Of a DNA stretch of 12,874 nucleotides, positions 5,543-12,825 are shown in pieces. The notes beneath the pieces are model-generated. The model worked only from the letters and a program-made list of their open reading frames with translations, did no database searches and was not told the DNA's origin. The stretch is taken from assembly GCA_030726195.1 (NCBI GenBank), contig JANREF010000237.1, positions 8,682 to 21,555 of the forward strand, given 5' to 3'. The first letter of the stretch is position 1. Each line of letters opens with the position of its first letter. Source of the DNA: Burkholderiaceae bacterium. GTDB taxonomy: Bacteria; Pseudomonadota; Gammaproteobacteria; Burkholderiales; Burkholderiaceae_C. Position numbers and translations under genes: made by a program.

Positions 5543-6586
5543 TCAACTGGCTTGTACCGGCACCACAGGTATGACTTTGCCCACCGCAGACGGCGCAACC
5601 TCAGGCACCAACAAGCTGCCCGCGCGCAAGCCGCGCCAAGTCGACACCGCCAACATGAACACCACCACGTTGGTCACCACCAACGCCAACATGGCTGCTG
5701 CGGCCAAGGCGGTGTTGCCCGGTGTGACCTGCGCCACGCCAAAACTCAGGCTGGTGAAGGCGGCCATGGGGAAAGACAAGGCCCAAAAACCCATGTGAAA
5801 ACCCTCTGCAGCCGCTTTACGCAGCACGGGCAAGGCCCAGGCCAGTGAAAACGCCGCCAGCGCCCAAGCCATTTGCACCAGCCACGCCGGCGCGCCCAGC
5901 TGCAGCATGACCACGCCCAGCACCGAGGGCGGCGCCACGGTGATGAACCAGGTGGGCAGTAGCTTGGGCGGCAGTGCACTGTGCGCGGCGCGCCTGGCCA
6001 ACACCAAGCCCAACACAATGGGCCAAAAAAACACAGCAATGGCCAGCTGCATGACCGACCAAGTCTCGTGCCCCAAAGCCAAACCAGCCAACGGTGCGAC
6101 CACGTTGCCCACCACTGGGATAAACAACACCGGCGTGATGCCCGGCCACATCGCTGTGCTGCCACTGCTGTCAGGCGTGCCAGGCTTGAGCCAGCGCGAC
6201 AGCACCCACCACGTGACCACCAACTGCGCCGACGCGGCGCCATACCAAGCAAGGTTGAGCCAAGGCGTTGGCCCCACAATTTGCACAAACAGGGCCAGCA
6301 ACAACAACAGACCCACAGGCACCGCCGCCACAAAAGCGTGGCGCACCGGATGGTTGATGTCTTCTGCCACGGCTGGGCCAAACTGCTGCGCACGGCGCAC
6401 GCTCAACACCAGCAACACCACAAACACCGTGGCCGCCACTGCGCCCAAAGCCATGGCCAACCATCGCGCAGGCTCACCCATGATGGTTTGAGCGCGCAGC
6501 CACGCCAGCGCCAAGCCAGACAGCCCCATGACGATAGAAAACCATGCGGGCGATAAAAACTTCAGGGGCGGTTGATGGACTTGCAT
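5543..6586 (-). CDS. TDT-family (TehA/SLAC1/Ssu1-like) transporter
   Basis: A 347-residue integral membrane protein of the tellurite-resistance/dicarboxylate transporter (TDT) superfamily, which includes TehA, plant SLAC1 anion channels and the yeast sulfite exporter Ssu1. About ten hydrophobic segments are seen, the family number. Recognisable parts are LKFLSPAWFSIVMGLSGLAL (8-27), PTWFITVAPPSVLG (211-224) and MGFWALSFPMAAF (265-277). The last is the helix that carries the pore-gating Phe in TehA. The frame is open to 6682, but the additional 32 residues are Arg/Cys-rich and unlike the family, so I start at ATG 6586, with only a weak ribosome site. It lies about 110 bases after the DUF2892 gene on the same strand and may be the last gene of that unit or have its own promoter. 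The substrate is unknown; an anion such as sulfite would suit the neighbourhood. Confidence 0.87.
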   Translation of the reverse strand: MQVHQPPLKFLSPAWFSIVMGLSGLALAWLRAQTIMGEPARWLAMALGAVAATVFVVLLVLSVRRAQQFGPAVAEDINHPVRHAFVAAVPVGLLLLLALFVQIVGPTPWLNLAWYGAASAQLVVTWWVLSRWLKPGTPDSSGSTAMWPGITPVLFIPVVGNVVAPLAGLALGHETWSVMQLAIAVFFWPIVLGLVLARRAAHSALPPKLLPTWFITVAPPSVLGVVMLQLGAPAWLVQMAWALAAFSLAWALPVLRKAAAEGFHMGFWALSFPMAAFTSLSFGVAQVTPGNTALAAAAMLALVVTNVVVFMLAVSTWRGLRAGSLLVPEVAPSAVGKVIPVVPVQAS

Positions 6587-6950: not shown

Positions 6951-9900
6951 TCAGGTTGACTGGGTTGGGAAGCGCCGTTGATTGACGGCGTAATACAACA
7001 CGGGGATGACCACCAAGGTCAGCAAAGTGGACACGGCAATGCCAAAAATCAATGTGATGGCCAAACCATTGAAAATGGGATCGTCCAAAATAAAGAAAGC
7101 ACCCACCATGGCTGCCAAGCCGGTCAAGGCAATGGGCTGCGCACGCACGGCGGCCGACTGCACCACAGCGGTGGCAAACGACAAGCCGCGTGCGGTTTCA
7201 AGCTCAATAAAGTCCACCAACAAAATAGAGTTGCGCACGATGATGCCGGCCAAGGCAATCATGCCAATCATGCTGGTAGCCGTGAACTGCGCGCCCAACA
7301 ACGCATGGCCTGGCATCACGCCAATGATGGTCAGTGGGATAGGCGCCATGATGATCAGCGGCGTGACATAGCTCTTGAACTGCGCCACCACCAACAGGTA
7401 AATCAAGATCAAGCCCACGGCATAGGCCGCGCCCATGTCGCGGAAGGTCTCGTAAGTGATTTGAGACTCCCCGTCCCACTTCACGCTGTAGCCACGCAAG
7501 CCATCGCTGGGCTGGCTGATCCAGTACTCCTGCAGCGCACCTGCGCCCGGCAGTGCCGCGTTTTGCAAACGCGTGCGAATGTCGGCCAAGCCGTACAAGG
7601 GCGAGTCCAAGTGCCCAGCCATGTCGCCCATGACGTAGGTCACCGGCATCATGTCTTTGCGGTGGCGCACCACATCGACCACACCCCGCTGCACAGTGAC
7701 CAACTCCGACAATGGCACCAAGCTGCCATTGGCCGCGCGCATGGGCGTGGCCAGCACCGCGTCCATACCCACCTGCGCACTGCGCGGCAGCTGCAAGCGA
7801 ACGGGCACGGCATATTTGTGTGTGCCGCTGTGTATGAACGTGGCGTCTAGACCGCTGAGTGCGGCTTGTGCCGCTTGCGCAATGGCCGCCTCTGGAATAC
7901 CCAAGCTTTGCGCCTTGCTGCTTTGCACACGCAAGAACACGCGCGGCGAGGCCTCTACCAAGCTCGTGTCTACACCCACGATATCGGGCGTGTCCTTGAA
8001 TTGTTGGGCCAAACTGGTGGCAATGCGCGCACGGCCTTCGTAGTCGGGGCCATAAATTTCAGCCACGATGGGCGACATGACGGGCGGGCCCGGCGGCACC
8101 TCCACCACCTTCACTCGCGCGCCATAGGTGTTGGCAATTGCTTCCAAGTCTGGGCGCAAGCGCTGCGCGATGGCATGGCTTTTTTCACTGCGGTGCGACT
8201 TGTCAACCAAGTTCACCTGCATGTCCGCGCTGTGGGGCTGCGCGCGCAAATAGTACTGGCGCACCAAGCCGTTGAAAGTGATGGGGCCTGCGTTGCCCAC
8301 ATAGGCCTGCATGTTGCGCACCTCAGGCTGCGCGGCCAAATAGTCGCCCATGGCTTGCATGGCAGCAGCGGTATCTTCCAGCGGCGTACCAACCGGCATG
8401 TCCACCACCAGTTGAAACTCGCTCTTGTTGTCAAACGGCAGCATCTTCAACACCACCGCTTGCACCACGGCCAGGCCAACCGACAGCAGCATGGCAGCCA
8501 CCACACCCACGGCCAACAAGCGGCGCTTGGCCGCGCTGGCCAACAGCGGCGTGAGTATGGCTGTGAAGCTGCGCTGCAACCAATGGGTCAACTTCGACGA
8601 CTCGTGCTGGCCGTGGCCACCGCCTTGGCTGGGTTTGCTCAGCTTGAGCGCCAACCACGGTGTCACCGTGAAGGCAATGGCCAAAGACAAGGCCATGCCC
8701 ATGCTTGCATTGATGGGGATGGGGCTCATGTAAGGCCCCATCAAGCCACTCACAAATGCCATGGGCAACAGGGCTGCAATCACCGTGAGTGTGGCCAAAA
8801 TGGTGGGGCCGCCCACCTCGTCCACCGCGCGTGGAATGATGCGCGACAACGGCAAGTCAGGCGTGAGTTGGCGGTGCCTGTGTATGTTCTCAACCACCAC
8901 AATGGCGTCGTCCACCAAGATGCCAATCGAGAAAATGAGCGCAAACAGCGACACACGGTTGAGGGTAAAGCCCCATGCCCATGATGCAAACAACGTTGCA
9001 GTGAGCGTGAGTATGACGGCTGCACCCACAATCACAGCTTCGCGTCGGCCCAACGCCAAGCCCACCAAGACAATCACGCTGCCGGTTGCAAAGGCGAGTT
9101 TTTGTATGAGCTTGTTGGCCTTCTCGGCTGCAGTCTCGCCGTAATCACGGGTGACCTGCGCGACCACACCCTGGGGTATCAAGCTGTTGTCCAACTCGGC
9201 CAAGCGCGCGCGCACGCCGCTGGCCACATCGACCGCGTTTTCACCAGGCTTTTTGGTCACGGTGATCGTGACAGCACGTTGGTGGCGCACGCCTTGTTGC
9301 GCCGTACTGTCTGCGTTGTTTGCATCGTTGATTGCGCCCGCACCGGTTGCAAACCAGGTGTAGTTCTGAGGCTGGGCCGTGGTCCACGACACATCGGCCA
9401 CTTCACGCAAAAACACAGGACGGGCTTGGTGCACGCCCACCACAATGTCGCCTACATCCTTGTCGCTGGTGAGAAAGCCACCGGTGCGCACGGCCCAGGT
9501 TTGCGCGCCGCCAGGCGCCAAGACGCTGCCCGATGGCAAGCCCAGATTGGCCGAGGCAATGGCGCGCTGCAAACTGGCAATGTCCACGCCCATGACTTGC
9601 ATGCGACCGGGATTGAGCGCTACGCGCACCACTTGCGCTGCGCCGCCAATGGTTTGCACCTCGCGCGTACCTGGCACACGCTTGAGTTCGGCCTCAATGC
9701 CTTGAGCCACCTGGCGCAAATCTACGGCCACATCGTCGCTCGCGTGCAAGGTAATGCCCAAGACCGGTACATCGTCAATGCCTTTGGGCTTGACGATGGG
9801 CGGCATCACGCCAGCAGCTTGCGGCAGCCAGTCGCTGTTGCTGTTGAGCACATCGTACAAACGCACCAAGGCGTCGGTGCGTGGCACGCCCACCTTGTAT

Positions 9901-10268
9901 TGCACGGTCATCACCGCCATGCCCTCCATGGCCATGGCATAGGTGTGCTCCACACCGGCAATTTGTGACAACACTTGCTCGGCAGGTGCAGCCACCAAGT
10001 TCTCCACCTCGGCACTGCTCGCACCGGGAAACGGAATCATGACGTTGGCCATGGTCACGTTGATTTGCGGCTCCTCCTCGCGTGGCGTGACCAGCACGGC
10101 AAACAAACCCAGCAGCAAGGCCACCAACGCCAACAACGGCGTGATGGCATTCGACTGGAACGCTCGCGCAAGACGCCCAGAAAAGCCCAACTCGTCTTGG
10201 TGCACCGCTTGATGCGGCTCTGGCGTCGCGCCGTCATGTGGCGTGGGCGTATGTGGTGTGTGGTGCAT
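6951..10268 (-). CDS. RND efflux pump inner-membrane permease
   Basis: A 1105-residue resistance-nodulation-division permease, a proton-driven exporter that works as a trimer with a periplasmic adaptor and an outer-membrane channel. The AcrB layout is visible: first membrane helix at about 42-60, a large periplasmic loop beginning with REEEPQINV (63-71), then helices 2-6. The TM4 proton-relay pair Asp453-Asp454 lies in GILVDDAIVVVEN. A second periplasmic loop and helices 8-12 follow, including FKSYVTPLIIMAPIPLTIIG and the conserved GIIVRNSILLVDF. It is somewhat longer than AcrB, partly from an N-terminal cytoplasmic tail with six His in its first 23 residues. The sequence belongs with hydrophobe/amphiphile-type pumps rather than CusA-like metal pumps, judging from the lack of an evident methionine relay; the substrate is not readable. 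It follows the adaptor gene by 69 bases, with a poor ribosome site, and precedes DUF2892. No outer-membrane factor is encoded in the window. Confidence 0.93.
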   Translation of the reverse strand: MHHTPHTPTPHDGATPEPHQAVHQDELGFSGRLARAFQSNAITPLLALVALLLGLFAVLVTPREEEPQINVTMANVMIPFPGASSAEVENLVAAPAEQVLSQIAGVEHTYAMAMEGMAVMTVQYKVGVPRTDALVRLYDVLNSNSDWLPQAAGVMPPIVKPKGIDDVPVLGITLHASDDVAVDLRQVAQGIEAELKRVPGTREVQTIGGAAQVVRVALNPGRMQVMGVDIASLQRAIASANLGLPSGSVLAPGGAQTWAVRTGGFLTSDKDVGDIVVGVHQARPVFLREVADVSWTTAQPQNYTWFATGAGAINDANNADSTAQQGVRHQRAVTITVTKKPGENAVDVASGVRARLAELDNSLIPQGVVAQVTRDYGETAAEKANKLIQKLAFATGSVIVLVGLALGRREAVIVGAAVILTLTATLFASWAWGFTLNRVSLFALIFSIGILVDDAIVVVENIHRHRQLTPDLPLSRIIPRAVDEVGGPTILATLTVIAALLPMAFVSGLMGPYMSPIPINASMGMALSLAIAFTVTPWLALKLSKPSQGGGHGQHESSKLTHWLQRSFTAILTPLLASAAKRRLLAVGVVAAMLLSVGLAVVQAVVLKMLPFDNKSEFQLVVDMPVGTPLEDTAAAMQAMGDYLAAQPEVRNMQAYVGNAGPITFNGLVRQYYLRAQPHSADMQVNLVDKSHRSEKSHAIAQRLRPDLEAIANTYGARVKVVEVPPGPPVMSPIVAEIYGPDYEGRARIATSLAQQFKDTPDIVGVDTSLVEASPRVFLRVQSSKAQSLGIPEAAIAQAAQAALSGLDATFIHSGTHKYAVPVRLQLPRSAQVGMDAVLATPMRAANGSLVPLSELVTVQRGVVDVVRHRKDMMPVTYVMGDMAGHLDSPLYGLADIRTRLQNAALPGAGALQEYWISQPSDGLRGYSVKWDGESQITYETFRDMGAAYAVGLILIYLLVVAQFKSYVTPLIIMAPIPLTIIGVMPGHALLGAQFTATSMIGMIALAGIIVRNSILLVDFIELETARGLSFATAVVQSAAVRAQPIALTGLAAMVGAFFILDDPIFNGLAITLIFGIAVSTLLTLVVIPVLYYAVNQRRFPTQST

Positions 10269-10337: not shown

Positions 10338-11483
10338 TCAGTTGGCCCGGTTGACGGCTGCGCCCACCGGCGCGCCTTGCGCTGCACGCAAGGGCTGCAA
10401 GGCCACTTGTTCGCCAGCGCGCAGGCCTGCCAACACGCTGACCATGTCTTGTGCGCCGCTGTTGGGGGCGATGCGCACCGCGCGCAGCGCAAACGTTGGG
10501 CTGGCGCCGGGTGTGGCCACGTACACCGCGGTCATGTCCCCACGCTGCACCAGCGCTTGGCGGGGCACTTGCAGCTGGGTGGCCGCAGCGCTTGCAAAGC
10601 GCACCTCCACGGTTTGCCCTGCCAGCAATTGATCGGCTTGCCCGCCCACCACATTGAGCCGCCACAACACGGTTTGACTCATCGCATCAGCGGCGCTGGC
10701 ATGGGTGACGGCACCGACCGCCAGTGCTTGGCCGCTGGCCATGTACGCGCTGGGTGAGGCGTCATCAGCCAAGGCTGTGTGCTGTGACAGCGGCAACTGC
10801 ACCGCCACACGCAAGGGTGCCGGTGCGTACATGGTGATGACCGGCACGCCCGGCATGGCCACGTCGCCTGTGGTTTGGTGTGTGGTTTGCACAATGCCTG
10901 CAAAGGGCGCAGTGATGCGCGTGAAGCCATTGGCTGCGCTGGCCTGCGTTTGACCGGCTTGCGCAACCAGCCACTGTGCCTTGGCAGCGTCCACGGCTGC
11001 CACGCTCAGAAAACCCTGCTCACGCAGCGCTTGCACGCGCTTGTAGTTGGCCAGTGCTTGTTCGGTTTGGGCGTTGGCTTGGGCCACGCCCGCTTGGGTG
11101 GTGCGCGCATCAATGGTGGCCAACACTTGGCCTGCGACCACCGCATCGCCAACGGCGACATGCAGCTTGGTGATGCGTCCGCCCACTTGCGCGGCCAAGG
11201 TGGCTTGATGGACTGGCTCCACGATACCCGTGGTGGTATAGCTGCCTTGGGCCTGCAGTGTGCGGGCCACATAGGTGGGCACGCTGTCCTGCGCGGTGCG
11301 CTGGGCAGCCGCTGCTGTGGGCGCTGGCGTGGTCGCGCGTGCCGCCCCCCACACCACCACACCCGCCACAACCAGAACCCCCATCGCGACATAAGCGTAT
11401 ACGGGCTTGTGGGCAAACCGTGCCACGGCTGACAAGGGGTATGAGCCAGCTTCACGTGAAGCTGATTGCGGTGTGTTGGACAT
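10338..11483 (-). CDS. RND periplasmic adaptor (membrane fusion protein, HlyD/AcrA family)
   Basis: A 381-residue membrane fusion protein that bridges the RND permease to an outer-membrane channel. A single membrane anchor (27-47) follows a short cytoplasmic N-terminus; there is no lipobox. After an Ala/Pro/Thr-rich linker come a half-lipoyl segment (AAQVGGRITKLHVAVGDAVVAGQVLATID, 98-126), an alpha-helical hairpin (about 128-183), the second half-lipoyl strand (TRITAPFAGIVQT, 188-200), a beta-barrel and the membrane-proximal region. The frame is open up to 11531, but ATG 11483 is preceded by GGAG at the right distance and lies about 30 bases downstream of the predicted transcription start. 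The upstream Met codons at 11501 and 11531 have no ribosome site, and the latter lies inside the promoter. First gene of the pump operon, under the palindromic operator. Substrate unknown. Confidence 0.92.
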   Translation of the reverse strand: MSNTPQSASREAGSYPLSAVARFAHKPVYAYVAMGVLVVAGVVVWGAARATTPAPTAAAAQRTAQDSVPTYVARTLQAQGSYTTTGIVEPVHQATLAAQVGGRITKLHVAVGDAVVAGQVLATIDARTTQAGVAQANAQTEQALANYKRVQALREQGFLSVAAVDAAKAQWLVAQAGQTQASAANGFTRITAPFAGIVQTTHQTTGDVAMPGVPVITMYAPAPLRVAVQLPLSQHTALADDASPSAYMASGQALAVGAVTHASAADAMSQTVLWRLNVVGGQADQLLAGQTVEVRFASAAATQLQVPRQALVQRGDMTAVYVATPGASPTFALRAVRIAPNSGAQDMVSVLAGLRAGEQVALQPLRAAQGAPVGAAVNRAN

Positions 11484-11519
11484 GGACAGGCTCCTGCGCA
11501 TTGTGTGATGAACACCGCA

Positions 11520-11548
11520 AGAATAACACATACCCCTAGGGGTATCAA
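11520..11548 (-). promoter_or_regulatory. Sigma-70-type promoter of the pump operon
   Basis: Read on the minus strand: -35 TTGATA (11548 to 11543, five of six consensus), an exact 17-base spacer, and -10 TATTCT (11525 to 11520, four of six). Predicted start is near 11513, giving a leader of about 30 nt before ATG 11483. The 137 bases between this point and the alr stop hold no gene or clear terminator that I can support. Confidence 0.65.
11530..11545. promoter_or_regulatory. Perfect 16-bp palindrome, likely repressor operator (CsoR/CstR-like)
   Basis: ATACCCCTAGGGGTAT is identical to its own reverse complement over all 16 bases. Its outer half overlaps the -35 by three bases and the rest fills most of the -10/-35 spacer, so a bound protein would block polymerase. 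Operators of the CsoR-family repressors (copper sensor CsoR, persulfide sensor CstR, formaldehyde sensor FrmR) are GC-tract dyads of this kind, flanked by A/T. From memory, the CstR consensus is ATACCC...GGGTAT. No CsoR-family gene is in the window, so the protein would be encoded elsewhere. Confidence 0.65.
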
Positions 11549-11682: not shown

Positions 11683-12825
11683 TTACAGGTCGGCGTCCAG
11701 CTCTACCGGCACACGCAGGGCCAGCGCGCACATGAGCTCATAGGCAATGGTTTGGGCGCTGTGGGCCACTTCATCCACGGGCAGTACCACGCCGTTGCTG
11801 GCTTGGCCCCACAGCACAACTTCGGTGCCCAATCCCGGCAAGGCTGGGCGCTGCGCCAGCACGGGTGTGAGGTCTACGGTGAGCATGTCCATGCTCACAC
11901 GCCCCACCACGCGGGTGCGTATGCCATCAACCAACACAGGCGTGTCAGTGGGTGCATGGCGTGGGTAGCCGTCGGCATAGCCACAGGCCACCACGCCAAT
12001 GCTCATGGCTTGGTCGGCTGTAAAGCGCGAGCCGTAACCCACGGTGTCGCCTGGCTGTAAGTGCTGCACCGCCAGCAATTGGCTCTTGAGCGTCATGCCT
12101 GGGCGCAAGTCCCACGACGCCGCGCTGCCTTGCGGGTGGTCGGGCGCGCTGCCATACATGGCAATACCAGCGCGCACCCAGTCTGCGCTCAGTTGGCCGT
12201 GCTGGCCTTCACCGGCCAAGGCCAAGCCGGCATGGCGCAGCGTGGCCGCGCTGTTGCACAGCGCGCGCGCACCAGCCAAGTCTTGCGTGGCACGCTCAAA
12301 CTGCGCGACTTGGTGGGCCACGCCGCGCTCGCCATCGGCGTCGCTGAAGTGGGTCATGAGCGAAATTTCTTCGACCTGAGTGAGCGCGTTCAAGCGCGTC
12401 CACGCCGCACGAAACGCGTTGGGCGTGAAGCCCAAACGGTTCATGCCCGAGTTGAGCTTGAGGAACACCCGGTGGCCTACCTGCGTTTTATGCGCGGCCA
12501 GCCAATCGATTTGCTCGTTGCAATGCACGGTGTGCCACAGATCTAGACGCGAGCACAGCTCCAAGTCACGCGGCTCAAACACACCTTCAAGCAACAAAAT
12601 AGGGCCGCGCCAGCCCAAGGCGCGCACACGCTGCGCCTCCTCCAAATCCAGCAGCGCAAAGCCGTCGGCACCGCGCAATGCATCAAAAGCGCGTTCTATG
12701 CCATGGCCATAGGCGTTGGCTTTCACAACGGCCCACACCCTGGCGTTGGGCGCAGCAGCTTTCATGCGCGACAGGTTGTGGCGCAGGTTGGCAGGATGGA
12801 TCACAGCTTTGATGGGACGTGGCAT
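11683..12825 (-). CDS. alr: Alanine racemase
   Basis: A 380-residue PLP-dependent alanine racemase, interconverting L- and D-alanine to supply D-Ala for peptidoglycan. It is a fold-type III enzyme with an N-terminal TIM barrel and a C-terminal beta domain. The PLP-binding Lys35 is in [11 protein letters not shown] (32-42). The opposite catalytic base Tyr264 is in [10 protein letters not shown]. Substrate-binding features include [10 protein letters not shown] (124-133), [10 protein letters not shown] (216-225) and GRVSMDML (308-315), and it ends with the usual [12 protein letters not shown]. Full length, with no damage seen. The ATG at 12825 gives a normal N-terminus; no clear ribosome site is visible and the sequence just upstream is a period-9 tandem repeat. 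It could equally be a catabolic DadX, but no dadA is next to it, so the biosynthetic assignment is preferred. It lies upstream of the pump operon on the same strand, which has its own promoter. Confidence 0.95.

Follow-up and report, generated by a model that had tools for sequence, protein, structure and literature searches.

The window, by which we mean the whole stretch of 12,874 nucleotides analysed here (contig JANREF010000237.1 of the Burkholderiaceae bacterium assembly GCA_030726195.1), carries on its minus strand a proposed operon with the gene order adaptor, RND permease, DUF2892 and SLAC1, preceded by a promoter in which a palindrome is embedded. The features of the locus are the following.

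11683..12825, minus strand: alanine racemase gene (PF01168/PF00842), upstream on the same strand and outside the switch
11543..11548, minus strand: -35 hexamer TTGATA, its last 3 bases overlapped by the palindrome
11530..11545, no strand assigned: candidate operator, a perfect 16-bp palindrome, proposed for a Cys-x23-Cys CsoR-family repressor (exact match and conservation)
11520..11525, minus strand: -10 hexamer TATTCT, with TG just upstream
11492..11496, minus strand: AGGAG, likely ribosome-binding site of the adaptor gene, as read from the sequence
10338..11483, minus strand: periplasmic adaptor (RND_mfp); TIGR01730, 146.8 bits against a cut-off of 94.9; Pfam HlyD_3 and Biotin_lipoyl_2
6951..10268, minus strand: RND permease of 1105 aa; PF00873, E=9e-138, 461 bits
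6698..6937, minus strand: YgaP-like transmembrane protein (YgaP-like_TM, DUF2892) of 79 aa; PF11127, E=4.5e-12
5543..6586, minus strand: SLAC1/TehA-type channel, last gene of the proposed operon; PF03595, E=6e-36; start codon picked by eye

These profile matches confirm the adaptor-RND-DUF2892 operon claimed in the original prediction and add the SLAC1 gene to it. The start of the adaptor gene is placed at the ATG at 11483, because the ATG at 11531 chosen by the ORF tool would lie upstream of the start point of the proposed promoter. With a permease and a periplasmic adaptor, the locus encodes a tripartite RND pump. Among solved structures, the permease is closest to pumps, for example a MexB/MexY chimera, MexK and MdtB; none of the named NCBIfam RND permease subfamilies reaches its cut-off (best 427 bits against 1250), and by sequence the permease is nearest to the hydrophobe/amphiphile type, yet below every NCBIfam cut-off matched. 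The order RND-DUF2892-SLAC1 recurs in 8 of 80 loci (the best 80 of 287 confirmed DUF2892 loci). Elsewhere in the window, a minus-strand ORF at 39-971 resembles, by eye, a TSUP/TauE-type (sulfite exporter) membrane protein.

The palindrome at 11530-11545 (ATACCCCTAGGGGTAT) is exact over its 16 bp. The minus-strand promoter reads TTGATA (11548-11543), a 17-nt spacer and TATTCT (11525-11520), with the palindrome made up of the end of the -35 hexamer and part of the spacer, exactly as had been claimed from the sequence. In the available excerpts of one study, CsoR-family operators are described as pseudo-palindromes with a run of at least four C or G (PMC10318464), and the window palindrome has this form. 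A search of the window at up to 3 mismatches returned 2 matches against a shuffle mean of 0.01; the second, at 11224 (C237:19905), lies within the adaptor gene and has 3 mismatches. The genome scan proposed with the original prediction found the 16-mer, at up to 2 mismatches, at this one place only in the 2.09-Mb assembly. The loose motif ATACCC-N4-GGGTAT with 2 mismatches occurs at 37 places in the whole assembly against 45 for the reversed control, which is no enrichment; hence, within one genome, only near-perfect copies are informative.

Loci for comparison came from two sources: genome contigs with relatives of the DUF2892 protein (the best 80 of 287 confirmed), and pump orthologues in 80 related genomes, 35 of which have one at E<=1e-100, with 30 matches turned into loci. 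After removal of 7 duplicates, the 97 operon rows represent 90 distinct operons. Sixty-four of them were judged for the site, and the other 26 have less than 200 nt of upstream DNA, or show no CsoR gene within at most 3 kb of downstream DNA. The site was defined as ATACCC-N4-GGGTAT ahead of the adaptor gene, with mismatches counted over the 12 arm bases. In the labels used below, G000 is the window's genome, and Gnnn, Lnnn and Cnnn denote genomes, loci and contigs.

Thirty-three of the 90 distinct operons have a CsoR-family gene behind the pump and DUF2892 genes, in some cases with SLAC1, SQR-like or OsmC-like genes in between; among the 64 judged operons, 32 encode it behind the pump and on the pump's strand. 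Conservation of the palindrome ahead of orthologous operons, a check set beforehand, was borne out: with at most 3 mismatches, the site is present in 32/32 CsoR-plus and in 2/32 CsoR-minus operons (Fisher p=6e-16, n=64), a comparison that partly reflects ancestry, because most CsoR-minus operons have pumps from a clade that is more distant. The corresponding figures, each out of 32, are 27 against 2 at up to 2 mismatches, 18 against 1 at up to 1 mismatch, and 7 against 1 for exact arms. Among shuffled CsoR-plus upstream regions, the mean number with a site was 3.6, 0.3 and 0 out of 32 for up to 3, 2 and 1 mismatches, respectively, and coding stretches from the same loci gave 3/128 at up to 3. 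When only pumps of at least 66% identity are considered, the site is found in 31/31 CsoR-plus against 2/8 CsoR-minus operons (p=9e-6). The six operons lacking the site in this subset are five from Polaromonas and L047; the latter is not a clean negative, because letters are masked around its adaptor gene and a clade regulator gene lies elsewhere in its genome, and without it the CsoR-minus figure among the judged operons becomes 2/31. L047 and L056 are located on one chromosome (G026/G085), where the operon is apparently split, the pump being apart from a C-terminal pump fragment that is found together with the DUF2892 and CsoR genes.

The two CsoR-minus operons with the site are that of the window and L190 (G033). 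Perfect-arm sites are also present in the unjudged loci L009 and L093, where the DNA stops soon after the pump. TTG immediately precedes the site in 7 of 27 aligned sites, those of the window and L190 among them, and in L179 (G017) a single base separates TTGACA from the palindrome, which is followed by a -10-like box rich in A/T (by eye). Many CsoR-plus promoters contain a second, weaker site 21-24 bp downstream, which is absent from the window.

The associated regulators were placed in a tree of 74 CsoR-family proteins. Those encoded at pump operons (operon-linked class), those encoded next to dioxygenase-like genes (dioxygenase-linked class), a third class and the protein of L023 form one group of 55, with a support of 93/91 that is under the tool's 95/80 mark and is based on few alignment columns. 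A cysteine 24 residues after the conserved first cysteine is found in 53/55 members of this clade and in 0/19 of the other proteins, while a histidine at +25 is found in 0/55 and 18/19, respectively. The site also precedes regulator genes: of the dioxygenase-linked class, 11/12 have it at up to 3 mismatches (shuffles 1.9) and 7/12 at up to 2, and of the third class, 5/7 at up to 2 (shuffles 0.07). Genes of the His-type regulators have it in 0/20 at up to 2 mismatches and in 4/20 at up to 3, against 1.9 from shuffles. The site therefore goes with the Cys-x23-Cys clade and not with the His type. Operon-linked regulator genes show an upstream site of their own in 2/36 at up to 3 mismatches against 1.5 expected, which is not beyond chance, as expected if they are transcribed from the pump promoter. 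Taken across operons and regulator genes, the comparison shows, at the level of sequence, a conserved palindrome that is tied to one clade of CsoR-family regulators.

The third class comprises L165, L167, L199, L250-L252 and L254, and sites resembling ATACCC-N4-GGGTAT lie close to its genes. Those of L165, L167 and L199 point away from a neighbouring lipoprotein-like gene, behind which L167 and L199 have a possible OmpP1/FadL-like gene (names given by eye).

Presence of a CsoR-family gene in the window's genome, likewise a check set beforehand, could be established: one PF02583 gene was found, at G000:C282, outside the pump operon (61.4 bits against a cut-off of 22.8; a representative of the operon-linked regulators, also a member of the superfamily, scores 75.7 bits against the same 22.8). 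It lies between a same-strand MBL-rhodanese fusion gene and a divergent Sulf_transp/DUF6691 pair. The solved-structure matches of the fusion protein include BpPRF, which we take to be a persulfide dioxygenase-rhodanese fusion, and the persulfide dioxygenase ETHE1. The divergent promoter region contains ATACTCTTTGGGGTAT, with one mismatch over the two arms. A regulator beside a persulfide-dioxygenase-like fusion and a sulfur-transport-like pair, with a fitting operator, may thus be regarded as a resident regulator at a sulfur-detoxification-like locus. The candidate regulator of the window's pump is accordingly encoded in trans, at this persulfide-dioxygenase-like/sulfur-transport locus, and not in the pump operon.

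Related genomes show a similar arrangement. In G006 and G009, both of the same genus, an exact-arm site occupies the matching place ahead of the pump orthologues; in G009 site and pump are on separate contigs, linked via the common alanine racemase neighbour, which is also present in G033. Each of these two genomes has a dioxygenase-linked-class and a third-class gene, with none operon-linked among their hits. In G033 the site is kept without an in-operon regulator, and the genome has a dioxygenase-linked-class gene. Besides the window's own, four operons (in G006, G009, G017 and G033) were seen to keep the site with no regulator gene in the operon, and all four genomes hold a dioxygenase-linked-class gene, judged for G017 from the hit profile only; the contigs of G006, G009 and G017 are too short to exclude an in-operon regulator gene. 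Of the 30 CsoR-minus genomes that were searched whole, 21 gave no PF02583 hit. Among the others, third-class genes are found in four of the five Polaromonas, and in G085 a gene of the operon-linked class lies away from the pump; the remaining four, one of them Polaromonas, have His-type genes only.

It is conceivable, if rather unlikely, that the window's operon is controlled not by the dioxygenase-linked regulator but by a second clade regulator, operon-linked or of the third class, that is missing from the assembly. The assembly is 87% complete and in 346 contigs, so that a second regulator could be missing, and the pairing of dioxygenase-linked and third-class genes in G006 and G009 is in line with such a view. 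Against it, four of five Polaromonas have a third-class gene and, close to it, a matching site, whereas the pump site is present in 0/5; the third class therefore seems not to go with the pump operator. As to an operon-linked gene, 11 of 12 PF02583 hits in 10 same-genus genomes (the window's included) could be classed, the twelfth being a weak, broken hit in G007, and 0 were operon-linked. The dioxygenase-linked regulator stays the preferred candidate.

The original prediction named copper, persulfides or formaldehyde as possible signals. The metal site of copper-sensing CsoR consists of a Cys, a His at +25 and a Cys at +29. The histidine is missing throughout the clade, as noted above, and the cysteine at +29 is absent from all 55 proteins; in the alignment of an operon-linked protein to the solved family member 6ahx, Phe and Glu replace the metal-binding His and the second Cys. 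Three representatives score 31.5-37.5 bits with the FrmR profile (NCBIfam NF008464), far below its cut-off of 133. The cysteines of CstR are 29 residues apart, a spacing that the clade, with 24, does not share. What the clade has in common with CstR, as a matter of neighbourhood only, is the proximity of genes for a rhodanese, an exporter, SQR or a persulfide dioxygenase. Of the CsoR/CstR-type switch that had been predicted, the family is supported, by the association of CsoR-family gene and site, and the subtype is not, the regulators being neither copper CsoR, FrmR nor CstR proper. Two operon-linked regulators from Hydrogenophaga, L027 and L033, lack the cysteine at +24, so that a two-cysteine mechanism would not be universal in the clade; the promoter of L033 keeps the site.

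A reading in which the palindrome is a CsoR-family operator, with a metal (Cu, Ni/Co) or formaldehyde as the signal and a metal or an electrophile as the exported compound, appears improbable. Founding members of the family sense such signals, according to the excerpts available of PMC5016687, and heavy-metal RND profiles do match the permease, below their cut-off (CusA/CzcA family, 209 bits against 701). However, the ligand residues and FrmR profile scores given above argue against it, and the recurrent neighbour genes that can be named are of sulfur type. Copper and formaldehyde were thus discarded as main signals: since the regulators carry Cys +24 and not His +25 and Cys +29, both are unlikely, and of the three signals originally named, reactive sulfur is the likely one, on the neighbour genes.

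That the palindrome acts as an RNA hairpin, be it a terminator of the alanine racemase gene or a leader hairpin, is very improbable: a terminator scan of the minus strand flags the palindrome together with a tail that contains Ts, but the predicted fold is no better than that of shuffles (z=-0.6), a T-run after the site is not seen in the base counts of the 27 aligned sites (by eye), and the palindrome tracks the CsoR gene across operons. A chance palindrome, or the site of an unrelated factor, is scarcely credible, for although one site in one genome is weak evidence and the loose motif is unenriched, the association with the CsoR gene and the recurrence of the motif at the regulators' own promoters speak against it. 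The window palindrome thus appears not to be a product of chance and is most likely the landing site of a two-cysteine relative of CsoR.

Within 1 mismatch, the loose-motif scan of the window's genome lists six places: the window, the csoR locus, C221 (pcm), C54, C170 (within an ftsQ-like gene) and C237:19905 (the adaptor gene). At G000:C221:1245-1260 (L205), ATACCCCACGGAGTAT is found directly before the pcm gene, which is followed by genes for a rhodanese and a TolC-type outer-membrane protein (by eye). Similar sites are present in G011 (L223) and G017 (L226), degraded ones in G002 and G007, and none in the other upstream regions located. This site could put an outer channel under the same switch; its GGAG may just be a ribosome-binding site. 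At C54:7619-7634 (L203 1501-1516), between moaE-like and clpB-like genes, a one-mismatch site lies ahead of the clpB-like gene, and exact-arm sites occur at the equivalent place in G002 and G007 of the same genus (L172 5852-5867; L176 2805-2820), immediately ahead of a promoter that looks, by eye, heat-shock-like. Of 25 clpB loci fetched, 13 could not be located and 9 of the 12 located upstream regions have no site at up to 2 mismatches; given this patchy distribution, C54 is a lead only. An exact-arm site at L185 5354-5369 (G011:C10), some 115 bp ahead of a gene that resembles, by eye, a rhodanese gene, marks a possible regulon member. G051, a genome of the same order, contains 14 exact ATACCC-N4-GGGTAT sites against 0 for the reversed control.

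Genes of sulfur metabolism recur around the pump. An SQR-like flavoprotein cluster is present in 19/90 loci (9 CsoR-plus), mostly between the pump and DUF2892 genes; the single representative tested hits sulfide-quinone reductases of solved structure at E=5e-172, and the cluster has at least one divergent member (L194). Genes for OsmC-like proteins occur in 26/90 loci (18 CsoR-plus) and rhodaneses in 17/90 (0 CsoR-plus), and in Ramlibacter lithotrophicus (L018) relatives of the sulfur-transport pair lie downstream. In 32 of 57 operons in which no CsoR gene was seen, an ArsR-family gene is located upstream. In the Polaromonas loci L024, L029, L043, L044 and L045, an ArsR gene and then a persulfide-dioxygenase-like gene lie ahead of the pump, which is followed by SQR-like and OsmC-like genes; CsoR gene and site are absent. 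The ArsR protein of L043 has BigR (3pqj) as its best solved-structure match, yet scores 103 bits against the NF040642 cut-off of 155, and is therefore called BigR-like only. Other ArsR genes in the set show a different cysteine pattern (by eye) and may sense something else. The comparison thus shows a neighbourhood of sulfur-type genes, from which reactive sulfur is likely to be the inducer. The original prediction had drawn its sulfur link from the YgaP-like domain; the link holds as likely, and its basis shifts from DUF2892 alone to the SQR, persulfide dioxygenase, OsmC, rhodanese and ArsR/BigR-like neighbours.

Several known systems resemble the one proposed here. CstR (CsoR-like sulfurtransferase repressor) of Staphylococcus aureus controls a multidomain sulfurtransferase, a persulfide dioxygenase, SQR and a putative sulfonate/thiosulfate effluxer (excerpts of PMC5480029; PMC10318464). 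It is likewise a DUF156 repressor with a dithiol and sulfur-gene targets, and differs in its cysteine spacing (29 against 24) and its targets, an RND pump being unmentioned for CstR in these excerpts. A Thermus relative, with C39/C68, fits the 29-residue spacing (PMC10318464, in part). TTHA1953 of Thermus thermophilus is a CsoR-family repressor that acts in trans on sulfur oxidation genes via a palindromic operator with TAC...GTA arms and 4 free bases (PMC10318464, in part), and is similar in all three respects. Its consensus TACNNTACNNNNGTANNGTA is without the C/G run of ATACCC-N4-GGGTAT, its cysteine spacing is 29, it controls sox and not a pump, and NaHS failed to reduce its DNA binding (PMC10318464).

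BigR is a persulfide sensor that in Acinetobacter controls yeeE-yedE-pdo2 (PMC7315123, in part), a set that resembles the genes at the CsoR locus of the window's genome. BigR and YgaV belong to the ArsR family and have an unrelated winged-helix fold; in Polaromonas the PDO-pump operon has an ArsR gene ahead of it, BigR-like in the one case tested. In these lineages the ArsR-type regulator seems to be a substitute for the CsoR-type switch and not a partner of it. Copper CsoR, FrmR and RcnR share PF02583 with the clade, as well as a pseudo-palindrome with C/G runs that overlaps the promoter; they differ in the metal-site His and second Cys, which the clade has lost, and the site is not associated with the relatives' His-type genes at up to 2 mismatches.

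Based on this dataset, we consider it probable that the palindrome is the operator of a CsoR/RcnR (DUF156) repressor with a cysteine pair, and that the pump operon is derepressed by reactive sulfur. In the mechanism we propose, the reduced repressor on its operator would cover the -35 hexamer and the spacer and block RNA polymerase, whereby the adaptor-RND-DUF2892-SLAC1 operon would be shut. Persulfide or polysulfide from sulfide oxidation would bridge or modify the cysteine pair, the repressor would leave, and the pump, DUF2892 and SLAC1 genes would then be expressed together with the persulfide-dioxygenase-like and sulfur-transport genes under a common repressor. In the window's genome this repressor would act in trans from the dioxygenase locus, while most site-bearing relatives encode it at the end of the pump operon. 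Repressor binding, the thiol chemistry, the nature of the inducer and export of a sulfur-derived or sulfur-stress-related compound are steps that we infer from sequence comparison.

A wider reading is possible but tentative: the Cys-x23-Cys clade may be an undescribed reactive-sulfur-sensing branch of CsoR, and the RND-DUF2892 pump a dedicated sulfur-stress exporter (e.g. for low-molecular-weight persulfides or polysulfides), placed under a CsoR-type or a BigR-like ArsR-type switch depending on the lineage. The novelty seems to lie in the cysteine geometry and in the RND pump as a target, CsoR-family sulfur regulators such as CstR and TTHA1953 being already known. A limited literature search, too incomplete to call either unpublished, returned no description of the Cys-x23-Cys geometry or of an RND pump as target.

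RND pumps have mostly been studied as exporters of drugs and metals under TetR, MarR or two-component control. A conserved pump whose operator, regulator clade and gene neighbourhood tie it to sulfide oxidation suggests a role in sulfur homeostasis for some pumps of the RND type. The same dataset may also provide a test set for the transition of the CsoR fold from metal to thiol switch, in which clades with a metal site can be compared with clades that have a cysteine pair of new spacing and a common operator type.
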